A stretch of DNA of 64,000 nt from Gluconacetobacter takamatsuzukensis. GTDB taxonomy: Bacteria > Pseudomonadota > Alphaproteobacteria > Acetobacterales > Acetobacteraceae. The notes under the pieces are model-generated. The model saw only the letters and a list, made by a program, of their open reading frames with translations, did not search any database and was not told the origin of the DNA. The stretch spans positions 1 to 64,000 of the forward strand of contig NZ_JABEQK010000012.1 in the NCBI RefSeq assembly GCF_014174275.1, in the 5' to 3' direction. This document shows positions 11,891 through 62,513 of this stretch, in pieces. The translations under genes and the position numbers were made by a program. The first letter of the stretch is position 1. Each line of letters begins with the position of its first letter.

Positions 11891-12549
11891 ACGGAATCGG
11901 GGCTTTCGCGGGGCTGGCGGGCCGGCTGGCGGGGTGTGCGCTGGCGTGCGGACAGGTGGGGCGGCCGGAACGCAGCCTGGCGCGCGACGAAGCGGTGTGC
12001 CGGCTGGGCGCCGTGGCGGGGGAGCGCGGATGGGGGCCGGATGTCCTGCGCGCGGTCGCCGGCCCGGACGCCGACCTGCTGTTTCCCGGCGGGTCCGCCG
12101 AACTGGTCGAGGCCTGGTTCGACCTGGCCGACCGGATCATGATCGACGCCGCGCGCGGGCTGGACGAGCCGCGGCTGGGGCGGCGTGTGCGCGCGGTGAT
12201 CCTGCTGCGGCTGGGGGCCGTCACGCCCGATCGCGACGCGGTGCGCCGGGCGCTGGCCGTGCTGCTCGCGCCCGGGCATGCGGCCCTGCTGGCCCGGGTC
12301 ATGGCGCGGACGGTGGATGCGATCTGGGAAGCGGCGGGGGACCATGCGACCGGGATCACCCGGCAGACCAAGCGGATGAGCCTGGGGGCGATCTACGCCC
12401 AGGTGCTGCTGTTCTGGCTGGCGCGGGGGGACGACAGCGAGGCGGTGGCGGAATTCCTGGACCGGCGACTCGCCGGGGTCGTGCGGCTGGGCCGGGCGAA
12501 GCAGGCGCTGCTGGCGCGGCTGCGGCCCGGACGGGCCCAGGCCGCGTGA
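11887..12549 (+). CDS. COQ9-family ubiquinone biosynthesis protein
   Basis: The 220-residue product resembles COQ9, the lipid-binding accessory protein of the COQ7 hydroxylation step of ubiquinone synthesis. The diagnostic block is near the C-terminus: AIWEAAGDHATGITRQTKRMSLGAIYAQVLLFWL followed by EAVAEFLDRRLAGVVRLG, which matches the DxxWxxAGDxSTDxxxYTKRxxLxxVY...FLDRRI pattern of alphaproteobacterial COQ9. It overlaps def by four bases (ATGA) and overlaps the MarR gene by GTGA, so all three are probably translated as one operon. Acetic acid bacteria depend on ubiquinone for their periplasmic dehydrogenases. Confidence 0.8.
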   Translation: MNGIGAFAGLAGRLAGCALACGQVGRPERSLARDEAVCRLGAVAGERGWGPDVLRAVAGPDADLLFPGGSAELVEAWFDLADRIMIDAARGLDEPRLGRRVRAVILLRLGAVTPDRDAVRRALAVLLAPGHAALLARVMARTVDAIWEAAGDHATGITRQTKRMSLGAIYAQVLLFWLARGDDSEAVAEFLDRRLAGVVRLGRAKQALLARLRPGRAQAA

Positions 12550-13085
12550 GCGACCAGAAGGCGCCGGGCCGGCGGCATGGCGCCGGGGCCGGCCTGCTGT
12601 TCCTGCGCGAGGAGGAGATGCGCCAGGCGCAGGAGCTGATGATGCTGGCCTGGCGGGATTTCGGCGGGGTGGTCGATCCGGTGCTGGAGGCGTTGGGCCT
12701 GGGGCGCGCCCATCACCGGATATTGCAACTGGTGGGCCATCACCCCGGCATCGCCGTCGGCGCGCTGATCGAGTTGCTGGGCATCACCAAGCAGAGTCTG
12801 GGGCGCGCGCTGACCGATCTGCAGGACCGGGGCTATGTGGTGCAGGAAGTGGGGCGGCGCGACCGCCGGCTGCGCCTGCTGTCGCTGACCGAGAGCGGGG
12901 CGGCGGTGGAGCGGCAGCTCTTCGACCTGCAACGGGAGAAGCTGATGGGCGTGTATCGCGATGTCGGTGCGGCCGCGATCGACGGGTTTCGCCGGGTCGT
13001 GCAGGGGCTGATGGACGACCGGACGCGCCGTGTGCTCGATGACGTGGCCACGGCGGCGGAACGGGCGCATCGTGGCTGCGCATGA
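12546..13085 (+). CDS. MarR-family transcriptional regulator (PetP-like)
   Basis: The product is 179 residues from the GTG at 12546, which overlaps the coq9 stop (GTGA). The winged helix-turn-helix is visible as AHHRILQLVGHHPGIAVGALIELLGITKQSLGRALTDLQDRGYVVQEVGRRDRRLRLLSLTESG. The ITKQSLGRALTDL recognition helix and the position just before an OmpR-type regulator recall the petP-petR pair of Rhodobacter; that parallel is inference from family and order. The stop codon TGA at 13083-13085 is directly followed by a decayed MITE-like repeat. An internal ATG at 12618 is an alternative start. Confidence 0.85.
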   Translation: MSDQKAPGRRHGAGAGLLFLREEEMRQAQELMMLAWRDFGGVVDPVLEALGLGRAHHRILQLVGHHPGIAVGALIELLGITKQSLGRALTDLQDRGYVVQEVGRRDRRLRLLSLTESGAAVERQLFDLQREKLMGVYRDVGAAAIDGFRRVVQGLMDDRTRRVLDDVATAAERAHRGCA

Positions 13086-13142
13086 GAGGCTGTTTCAAAA
13101 GCGTCGTCAGGCCGGGGGCGGCGGCGCTTTCGAAACAGTCTG
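13086..13142. repeat. Internally deleted MITE-like element (relic)
   Basis: It begins with GAGGCTGTTTCAAAAGC (13086-13102), identical to the terminal repeat of the 163-bp element at 60406-60568. Its right part, from about 13108, aligns with the right end of that element: both carry GTCAGGCCG, a GC-rich spacer, and GCTTTYGAAACAGYCT. The left end therefore joins almost directly to the right end, as expected for an internal deletion. The left flank is the TGA stop codon of the MarR gene; the right flank is TGG, so a perfect target duplication is not preserved. In RNA it folds into a hairpin and may terminate the MarR transcript. Confidence 0.65.
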
Positions 13143-18218: not shown

Positions 18219-19196
18219 ATGATGGGAATGATGGCGAGACGTTCGCTGATGGTCGGGTTTGGCGGGTATCTGCCGGACCGGATCGTGACCAATGACGAGC
18301 TGGCGGCTCGCCTCGAGACTTCGGACGAGTGGATCCGGGCCCGTACCGGGATCGGCCAGCGGCATATTGCCGGTCCGGGGGACAATGCCGTCAGCATGGC
18401 GGCGGCGGCCGCGACCCGGGCGCTGGATTATGCCGGCATGGCGGCGGCCGACGTGGGCGCGATCGTGGTCGCGACCAGCACGCCGGACCAGGCCTTTCCC
18501 GCCACCGCCGTCCGCGTGCAGGCCGAACTGGGCATGCGCGGCGGCTTTGGCTTCGATATCGCGGCGGCGTGCTCGGGCTTCATCTATGCGCTGACCGTGG
18601 CCGACTCGCTGATCCGCAGCGGCCAGACGGAATCGGCGCTGGTGATCGGCAGCGAAGTCTATTCGCGCATTCTCGACTGGTCGGATCGCGGCACCTGCGT
18701 GCTGTTCGGCGACGGCGCGGGCGCCGTGCTGCTGAAGGCCGGCGATGCCGGGCAGCCGGCCGGCATCCTGTCCACGCACCTGCATTCGGACGGCACGACG
18801 GGCGACCTGCTCTATGTCGACGGGGCCGTGGGGCTGCGCGAGCAGTCGGGCTTCCTGCGCATGCAGGGGCGCGACGTGTTCCGCCACGCGGTGGGCAAGC
18901 TTTCGTCGTCGGTGGACGAGGTGTTGCAGGCCAACGGGCTGGGCTATGCCGACGTGTCGTGGCTGGTGCCGCACCAGGCCAACCTGCGGATCATCGAAGC
19001 GGTGGCCCGCAAGCTGGAACTGCCGCCCGAGCGCGTGGTGGTGACGGTCGACAAGCATGCCAACACCTCGGCGGCCTCGATTCCGCTGGCGATGAACGAG
19101 GCCGTGCGCGACGGCCGCATCCGCAAGGGCGACCTGGTGCTGATGGAAGCCCTGGGCGGTGGCCTGACCTGGGGCTCCGCCCTGGCCCGCATCTAG
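18219..19196 (+). CDS. fabH: 3-oxoacyl-ACP synthase III FabH
   Basis: FabH condenses acetyl-CoA with malonyl-ACP to start fatty acid synthesis. The product is about 325 residues and has the thiolase-fold active site Cys in DIAAACSGFIYAL, His in VPHQANLRII, and Asn in KHANTSAASIPLA, with the C-terminal GGGLTWGSALARI. Four in-frame ATG codons (18219, 18222, 18228, 18231) make the exact start uncertain; the conserved part begins at ARRSLMVGFGGYLPDRIVTN. It follows plsX. Confidence 0.96.
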   Translation: MMGMMARRSLMVGFGGYLPDRIVTNDELAARLETSDEWIRARTGIGQRHIAGPGDNAVSMAAAAATRALDYAGMAAADVGAIVVATSTPDQAFPATAVRVQAELGMRGGFGFDIAAACSGFIYALTVADSLIRSGQTESALVIGSEVYSRILDWSDRGTCVLFGDGAGAVLLKAGDAGQPAGILSTHLHSDGTTGDLLYVDGAVGLREQSGFLRMQGRDVFRHAVGKLSSSVDEVLQANGLGYADVSWLVPHQANLRIIEAVARKLELPPERVVVTVDKHANTSAASIPLAMNEAVRDGRIRKGDLVLMEALGGGLTWGSALARI

Positions 19197-19198
19197 CC

Positions 19199-19308
19199 GG
19201 TTGGCCGGAAATGCGCGCTGGCGGCGATCCGGCGCGCGTTTCCTGCGCTCCGGTGCTCACGGCCCCATAGGGCCGCTCTCGCTCGCCAGCCCACATTTCC
19301 GACCAACC
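19199..19308. repeat. 110-bp palindromic repeat element between fabH and ihfA
   Basis: GGTTGGCCGGAAATG at 19199-19213 is repeated in reverse complement at 19294-19308 with one mismatch. A CGCTGGCG/CGCCAGC pair continues the arms inward after a short mismatch, and a GGCCC-CATA-GGGCC hairpin is at 19261-19274. The segment 19238-19264 matches the reverse complement of 60501-60527, inside the MITE-like element near lysE, at 26 of 27 bases. The ends differ from that element, so it is either a related family or a shared internal module. It starts two bases after the fabH stop codon. Confidence 0.6.
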
Positions 19309-19398
19309 TCCGCCGTCCCCCAATCAGAGAGGGAGGGCTCTCCGGGGTGGCTTCCCGGGCGCCGAGCGTGAAAAAGTAGTATGGCTTAACGCATTGAA

Positions 19399-60386: not shown

Positions 60387-60405
60387 CCCTTATTTCGAGC
60401 CCTTA

Positions 60406-60568
60406 GAGGCTGTTTCAAAAGCTCCGATAGTGAGCGGAAGCGTGGCGCCAGCCACGCGTCTGGCGGTGGTTTTCGAGCATCGGAGCGGAGCGGCCTTGAT
60501 GGCCGTGAGCACCGAAGCGCAGGAAACCGCCGTCAGGCCGCCGCTAGCGGGGCTTTTGAAACAGCCTC
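60406..60568. mobile_element. 163-bp MITE-like element with 17-bp terminal inverted repeats
   Basis: The ends are GAGGCTGTTTCAAAAGC and its exact reverse complement. A TTA duplication flanks both sides (60403-60405 and 60569-60571). Inside, GCTCCGAT/ATCGGAGC and GCGTGGC-GCCA-GCCACGC form further stems, and no open frame fits a transposase, so the element is non-autonomous. TNA target duplications and GAGGC-type ends are typical of the IS5/IS1031-like families of acetic acid bacteria, which is the likely source. The right TTA is the reverse-strand stop codon (TAA) of lysE. Confidence 0.75.
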
Positions 60569-61195
60569 TTATTTCGGGTTGTGCAGCAGCAGGACACAGC
60601 CGAACAGGATGAACAGCGCGCCGCTGGTCCGCTGCATGCGGCGGCGCCAGGTGGCGCGGGACAGCACCGCCGCCAGCCGGGCGCCGCTGCCGGCATAGAC
60701 GAGGTACCACAGCACCTCCACCACCGCCGAGGTCGCGATCAGCAGCGCGTATTGCGGGGCCTGTGCGGCGGCGGGGTTGACGAATTGCGGCAGGAACGAC
60801 GCCGCGAAGACGATCGCCTTGGGATTGCTGGCCCCGACCAGGAACGACGTGCGCAGCGCGGCATGCCAGGCCAGCGGCGGCACGGTCGCGCCCTCATCCC
60901 GCGCCGTGGGGGCGTGGGATAGCCAGCCGCGCACGCCAAGCTGGATCAGGTAGAGCGCGCCGGCCCATTTCAGGATCGCGAACAGGATGGGCGATGCCGC
61001 CAGCACGGCGCTGAGCCCCAGTGCCGAGGCCGCCATCAGTGCGACCAGCGACAGCAGGCAGCCCGCCATGTCCGGGATCGTCCGCCGCACCCCGTAGCGG
61101 ATGCTGGCGGTCATGATATGCGTCATGTTCGGCCCCGGAATGGCCGACAGCAGGAACACGGCGTTGAGGTACAGCAGCCACGATTGCAGCGTCAT
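60569..61195 (-). CDS. LysE/RhtB-family amino acid exporter
   Basis: The 208-residue product has six membrane segments and the family opening WLLYLNAVFLLSAIPGPNMTHIMTASIRYGVRRTIPDMAG, with FLVGASNPKAIVFAASFLPQFVNP in the middle. LysE/RhtB proteins export amino acids such as homoserine, threonine, lysine or leucine. Its neighbour ltaE breaks down threonine, so threonine or a related amino acid is a plausible substrate. The stop codon TAA coincides with the target duplication of the MITE-like element. The start is 61195. Confidence 0.9.
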   Translation of the reverse strand: MTLQSWLLYLNAVFLLSAIPGPNMTHIMTASIRYGVRRTIPDMAGCLLSLVALMAASALGLSAVLAASPILFAILKWAGALYLIQLGVRGWLSHAPTARDEGATVPPLAWHAALRTSFLVGASNPKAIVFAASFLPQFVNPAAAQAPQYALLIATSAVVEVLWYLVYAGSGARLAAVLSRATWRRRMQRTSGALFILFGCVLLLHNPK

Positions 61196-62254: not shown

Positions 62255-62513
62255 CGTGATCGCTGCCTTTCCTCGCTTGCTACAGGCACCACGAGGATCG
62301 ATGACTTGAGGTAGCGGTCCGTTTTTTGCCGGATCGGCCACATCTTCCCGGAACGGGAACGCCACCTTGCTCGGATGCAGGTTGGTGCCGGGATGGCCCG
62401 GCTCTGGATGCGGCGCGCACCATATCGCAGCACCCTGGCGGCGGCAAGCGAGGCATCGGGGCGCGAAAAACGCATGCCGCAACGCCGGCAGCGCCCCTCG
62501 CACCCCCGTCTTT

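Follow-up and report, generated by a model that had tools for sequence, protein, structure and literature searches.

The window, that is the whole stretch of 64,000 nucleotides that was analysed, includes a lysE-type exporter gene on the reverse strand whose stop codon is directly abutted by a short foldback element. The encoding open reading frame (60569-61195) contains a LysE translocator domain (PF01810, E 1.8e-35), and two related hairpins are located elsewhere in the window. The features identified were as follows:

60406..60568, reverse strand: foldback element of subtype A, 163 bp, with the lysE strand as its sense orientation (perfect 17-bp ends, folding)
60406..60422, forward strand: terminal inverted repeat GAGGCTGTTTCAAAAGC (direct sequence comparison of the ends)
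60552..60568, reverse strand: terminal inverted repeat GAGGCTGTTTCAAAAGC (direct sequence comparison of the ends)
60403..60405, no strand: TTA copy of the target-site duplication (sequence and element-free loci)
60569..60571, reverse strand: TTA duplication copy that is the TAA stop codon of lysE (sequence, open reading frame and element-free loci)
60475..60512, reverse strand: conserved apex GTGCTCACGGCC-N5-GGCCGCTCCGCTCCGATGCTC (core pattern and covariance model)
60569..61195, reverse strand: lysE-type exporter gene, stop abutted by the element (open reading frame and Pfam)
19197..19312, forward strand: family copy with the inner right arm partly deleted, directly 3' of the TAG stop of the gene at 18228-19196
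13086..13142, forward strand: 57-bp hairpin sharing the terminal repeat of the lysE element, directly 3' of the TGA stop (13083-13085) of the gene at 12546-13085

Direct reading of positions 60403-60571 bore out the initial annotation, which had described an element of 163 bp whose 17-bp ends are perfect and which is flanked by a duplicated TTA. Ends matching GAGGCTGTTTCAAAAGC with up to 3 mismatches would be expected by chance 0.06 times in the whole window. A single hairpin spans the entire element, with an RNA folding energy of -95.2 kcal/mol (z -9.0) on the lysE strand and -120.3 kcal/mol (z -12.0) on the other strand, and the apex at 60465-60530 on the reverse strand scored 89.6 bits with a covariance model. 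The element was absent from two congeners (G010 and G005) with an identical lysE stop (..CCTTATTTCGG and ..TCTTATTTCGG, respectively), and these empty loci indicate that the lysE element is an insertion rather than a coincidence. The right-hand TTA had been read as the lysE TAA stop left intact by the insertion and this held, the stop being the native one kept in both element-free congeners. The site was also empty in G003, G012 and G002, where the stop is TAG, while internally deleted copies were located at the same lysE stop in G004 and G007. A SAM-I/IV riboswitch (62312-62416, reverse strand) is located upstream of a beta-eliminating-lyase (threonine-aldolase-like) gene adjoining lysE.

Elsewhere in the window, the copy at 19197-19312 was matched by the covariance model at 19235-19294 on the forward strand (20.8 bits, E 0.003), and the 57-bp hairpin at 13086-13142 is probably an internal-deletion derivative without the apex. 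A different hairpin (GCAGCCTGCCTGCGGATGCG...) occurs at 1537-1657, soon 3' of the TAA stop of the gene at 1012-1536; the apex covariance model gave no match to this hairpin, which is possibly a decayed relative of the family. The idea of a stop-adjacent hairpin at every gene end was rejected, as within the window it is mainly family members that are positioned in this way.

The family is one of non-autonomous mobile elements, ~120-165 bp long, that fold back into a hairpin. Its apex is conserved, and its arms vary freely in sequence while staying complementary. Many other copies exist, and a 38-base core pattern had 54 matches in the 3.78-Mb host genome (up to 3 mismatches) and a reversed control of the pattern had none there. 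Each of the 13 other Gluconacetobacter genomes sampled had the pattern, in 3-84 copies, and a sister genus had 26 copies. Three subtypes were distinguished including A (ends GAGGCTGTTTCAAAAGC), B (ends GAGGCTGTTTGCAAAGTC) and C, a large divergent group that was the most numerous. Tandem element pairs were observed in the host genome (C7:119178/119314, C7:167621/167789, C8:22716/22846 and C1:399816/399634), in which the first copy abuts a stop and the second has different or truncated arms. A search of Rfam gave no gathering-threshold match to the lysE element and, at a lax threshold, no credible match to two other copies.

For the analysis of placement, 158 copies from the host and named congeners were clustered by flanking sequence into 101 independent sites. 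Genes were called by a codon log-odds (codon-usage) model built for the analysis, copies were delimited by their arms, and the census consisted of core-pattern and BLAST hits plus their flanks rather than an annotated whole genome. A copy was classed as abutting when a co-oriented upstream stop codon was located -10 to +3 nt from the arm start, and most were at -2 to 0. Sixty-seven of the 101 sites abut the stop of an upstream co-oriented gene while two abut a stop at the other end in the opposite orientation (67:2, P 8e-18). Uniform placement in the same intergenic gaps would give 7.6 left-stop and 3.8 right-stop sites, and the maximum left-stop count in 20,000 simulations was 18. The excess at stop codons, which the initial annotation had considered conditionally, is general (69/101 independent sites). 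It is not an ascertainment effect since the copies were found by their core sequence and not by position, and the gene calls were independently supported by RefSeq CDS ends in Bosea and Sphingobium and by orthology. The three stop types TGA, TAA and TAG were used as in the genome (P 0.82). About one third of the copies were not at a stop, and copies away from stops had no clear orientation preference (14:9). One host copy starts at the final base of a tRNA-Gly gene, and other copies follow tRNA-Ala genes. A TTTT within the 10 nt after the element was present for only 3 of the 67 stop-abutting copies, the U tract of an intrinsic terminator being mostly missing.

Orthologs of twelve genes with a stop-abutting copy in the host were searched for in five congeners, and each of the twelve had at least one element-free ortholog with its stop at the same codon. 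Among 56 ortholog alignments (a few from overlapping loci) the stop was shifted by 0 nt in 47, of which 37 were without the element, and the remainder had shifts of -12 to +18 nt except for one match running off its locus. These element-free orthologs indicate that the element as a rule arrives at existing stops, and they rule out, for all twelve genes, a truncation through a stop brought in by the element. An exception is L207, where a copy inside the gene end creates a new TAG ~15 codons early. The elements occupy pre-existing stops with a precision of 1-3 nt, in one orientation and far above chance.

Subtypes A and B are mobile. A B-type copy is present in L202 while the allele L124 is element-free, showing a TCA duplication. 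Perfect TNA duplications flank the lysE element (TAA) and copies at C13 (TGA), C3 (TGA), C7 (TTA), L394 (TAA) and L231 (TGA), two further perfect duplications were not TNA (CTG and CCA), and exact duplications were a minority even among A and B copies. For A and B copies at stops the right triplet often differed from the left stop by a single base (TGA/CGA, TAA/CAA), which would follow if one duplicate stays a stop while the other drifts. Copies 95-98% identical to each other sit at unrelated genes. In subtype C duplications were found at 9 of 82 copies (shuffled mean 4.0, maximum 11), which is not clearly above chance, and the ends match those of insertion sequences (ISs) only loosely, so that movement by the IS-type route is supported for A and B only.

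Full-length IS1031-type ISs with a DUF4096 transposase and ends of GAGCCTGTTTGGAAAGTC or close variants were present in the host and in G003 and G012. This agrees with the initial annotation, which described a non-autonomous element whose ends are of the IS5/IS1031 type and whose duplication is TNA. The B-type end GAGGCTGTTTGCAAAGTC was identical to the IS end GAGCCTGTTTGGAAAGTC at 16 of 18 positions, while the element interior had no similarity to the 883-bp IS past the 18-bp ends when 60 bases on each side were compared by eye. All fourteen ISs were flanked by TNA on both sides, with identical duplicates for eleven. Two of the ISs were at a stop, a small control (n=14), compared to 69 of 101 elements (Fisher P 1.6e-4). 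This proportion equals the ~15% obtained by counting TNA sites, which makes the ISs plausible as the machinery but not as the source of the stop bias. An IS1031-type transposase probably mobilises the IS-ended subtypes A and B in trans. A RAYT partner for the family was rejected, as no PF01797 (RAYT/Y1 transposase) hits were obtained in the host genome while control genomes did give hits.

Across 70 independent copies of subtype C the arms vary widely yet remain complementary. One outer-arm column pair consisted of AU 22, CG 21, UA 12 and GC 7, thus 62 of 70 copies were paired compared to 19.6 if the columns were unlinked. The arms of orthologous copies differ between species and match internally, and the arms are subject to constraint or correction. 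On the sense strand, A.C intermediates in the arms (85) were at least as common as G.U intermediates (about 50). The antisense strand relative to the upstream gene had the more stable fold for all 52 Gluconacetobacter copies and for 14 of the 15 copies belonging to other lineages. Sense-strand A.C mismatches in the conserved apex correspond to G.U pairs on the antisense strand.

A covariance model of the 66-nt apex was built from 16 diverse sequences. At E <= 1e-4 this model had matches in 28 of the 385 alphaproteobacterial genomes sampled, or 26 of 277 genera, many of them multicopy (up to 13 candidates were scored per genome). The DNA core pattern found only the host in the class search, which given the 28 genomes reflects a limit of the pattern. 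Several apex-model hits in G166 and G449 were less than 100 bases from contig starts, as with assembly-breaking repeats, and the copy number in these genomes is probably high. For 36 apex matches outside Gluconacetobacter, 93.4% of cells were paired compared to 70.7% when shuffled, although the alignment was fitted to the structure and leans that way. There were 139 double-changed cells compared to 34.8 +/- 4.4 when shuffled, and sliding the pairing partner abolished the signal. Stems beyond the apex share no common sequence. Thirteen of 33 copies at distant loci had a same-orientation long-ORF stop within 4 nt of the arm start, and nine of these ORFs had Pfam support including GMP synthase, acyl carrier protein, AhpC, TolB, OmpA-like, DmpG and HemF. 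The C-terminal domain of the GMP synthase is complete.

A TNA target preference had been put forward as the natural cause of placement at stops, TGA and TAA stops being available TNA sites outside coding sequence. Such a preference is consistent with the TNA duplications at lysE and several A and B copies and with the invariable TNA flanks of the ISs, but as the sole cause it is contradicted by the data and very improbable. Counting TNA sites predicts ~15% at stops compared to the 69 of 101 observed (P 9e-33), the ISs did not exceed this prediction, TAG stops, which are not TNA, were occupied in proportion to genome usage, and a symmetric target cannot yield the 67:2 orientation bias. A non-mobile conserved RNA 3' motif inherited with the genes, such as a terminator or stability element, would account for the covariation and conserved apex, the occupation of the same stop in several congeners and the class-wide distribution. 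This is improbable given the element-free orthologs for 12 of 12 genes, the empty site with a duplication, the near-identical copies at unrelated genes, the tandem copies and the variation from 3 to 84 copies among congeners. The arm covariation could instead be a mutational by-product of template switching or gene conversion in the hairpin, giving structure without function, which we consider an appreciable possibility though not the expected one. Outer-arm A.C and G.U intermediates are both rare and similar in frequency and the arms of orthologous copies diverge fast, as would be the case under this process; however, the apex keeps its mismatches and the sequence of its internal loop in almost every copy and throughout the class, while such correction should erase them, and the stop bias is left unaddressed.

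Targeted insertion, in which the element or its machinery senses gene 3' ends and lands in a fixed orientation, would explain why all three stop types are hit to within 1-3 nt whatever the local sequence, as well as the strict orientation, the copies that begin exactly at tRNA 3' ends, the lack of clear duplications in subtype C and the absence of a clear orientation preference away from stops. The cue could, for example, come from the ribosome during termination, from an intermediate made of RNA or from DNA that is single-stranded where transcripts end. We regard targeting as rather unlikely. A and B copies have mostly TNA duplications and IS-type ends, the host genome has no RAYT/Y1 transposase and about one third of copies are elsewhere. 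We know of no machinery that could direct insertion to gene ends in a fixed orientation.

We lean towards retention over targeting as the cause of the stop bias because the duplications of A and B copies are ordinary TNA ones and the similarly ended ISs show no bias. In the favoured explanation, an IS1031-type transposase would move A and B copies in trans into TNA sites and, where the site is a TGA or TAA stop, one duplicate would remain a working stop while the other decays. Sense-orientation copies at stops would then be preferentially kept and those at other sites or in other orientations lost, which is the least certain step. As a whole this explanation has in our estimate a slightly better than even chance of being correct. 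Copies may be kept because they carry no cost at this position or because they help as a structured mRNA 3' end, either as an exonuclease barrier or, in the manner described for REPs of E. coli, as a structure close to the ribosome. Retention together with the orientation rule would imply that the sense transcript matters, and the proposal that the element may act as a portable 3' end fits the placement pattern. Two observations are against a benefit from the mRNA hairpin, as G.U pairs would be expected to be tolerated on the sense strand, yet A.C was at least as common, and the antisense strand folds better than the sense strand. A classical terminator role is unlikely due to the missing U tract and since in E. 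coli the ribosome represses terminators situated very near a stop (PMC4824070).

Similar to IS5-family MITEs of the IS1031 group, the elements are short and non-coding, with terminal inverted repeats common to ISs of the same genome; 3-bp TNA duplications occur at the lysE element and several other A and B copies. They differ from such MITEs in the conserved apex and covarying arms throughout the family and in that most copies (subtype C) have divergent ends and no clear duplication, and from the IS1031-type ISs in their stop-codon position and fixed orientation. Rickettsia palindromic elements, likened here by description only, are alphaproteobacterial palindromic mobile repeats of similar length and are known for in-frame insertion within genes. 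We know of no stop-abutting orientation rule for RU-1, RU-2 and RU-3. These are, again by description only, comparable MITE-like intergenic repeats of 100-170 bp (PMC2759123, PMC2229807). The REP/BIME-RAYT systems of E. coli, Pseudomonas and Stenotrophomonas are likewise multicopy extragenic palindromes near gene ends, but the elements are ~160 bp compared to 20-40 for REPs, have no Y1 transposase in the host genome and lack in their sequences the GTAG or CGTC tag that marks the base of the REP palindrome. About two thirds of element copies abut the stop itself while ~11% of E. coli REPs are within 15 nt of a stop (PMC12306157). The same source, citing Liang 2015, describes effects on translation for REPs within 15 nt of a stop and on translation or decay for E. 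coli stop-proximal hairpins. GTAG REPs often provide a TAG stop, and CGTC REPs are reported absent from Acetobacteraceae (PMC3733652).

The family therefore behaves like MITEs and REPs while the defining features of both are partly lacking, as RAYT, the GTAG/CGTC tag and an IS-derived interior are all absent and the main subtype has no clear duplication. A literature search, mostly without subscription papers, found no paper on the family or on stop-codon-directed MITEs, and there is a real chance that the placement rule itself is something new. Gene ends appear to be the preferred home of this hairpin family, which is abundant, widespread and absent from Rfam and has a built-in control in the ISs with similar ends that lack the stop bias. 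Stop codons are defined by translation and not by a DNA motif, and precise one-way placement therefore needs either gene-end sensing or strong selection in favour of a mobile 3' end. If the bias were present at insertion, it would represent a new transposition target choice that reads gene ends and not DNA sequence. More tentatively, and on the doubtful side, the elements could form a family of structured mobile DNA that extends across the Alphaproteobacteria, has a conserved apical motif and is directed to or kept at exact gene 3' ends (stops and tRNA ends) in a fixed orientation, and would so be a spreading portable gene-end module.

A distant member was located at ~1200-1343 of L414 (Mesorhizobium plasmid pMspAR02c); its ends GAGACTGTTTGGAAATTC are of IS1031 type and its duplication is TTA/TTA. 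IS-type ends recur in this lineage with different stems.
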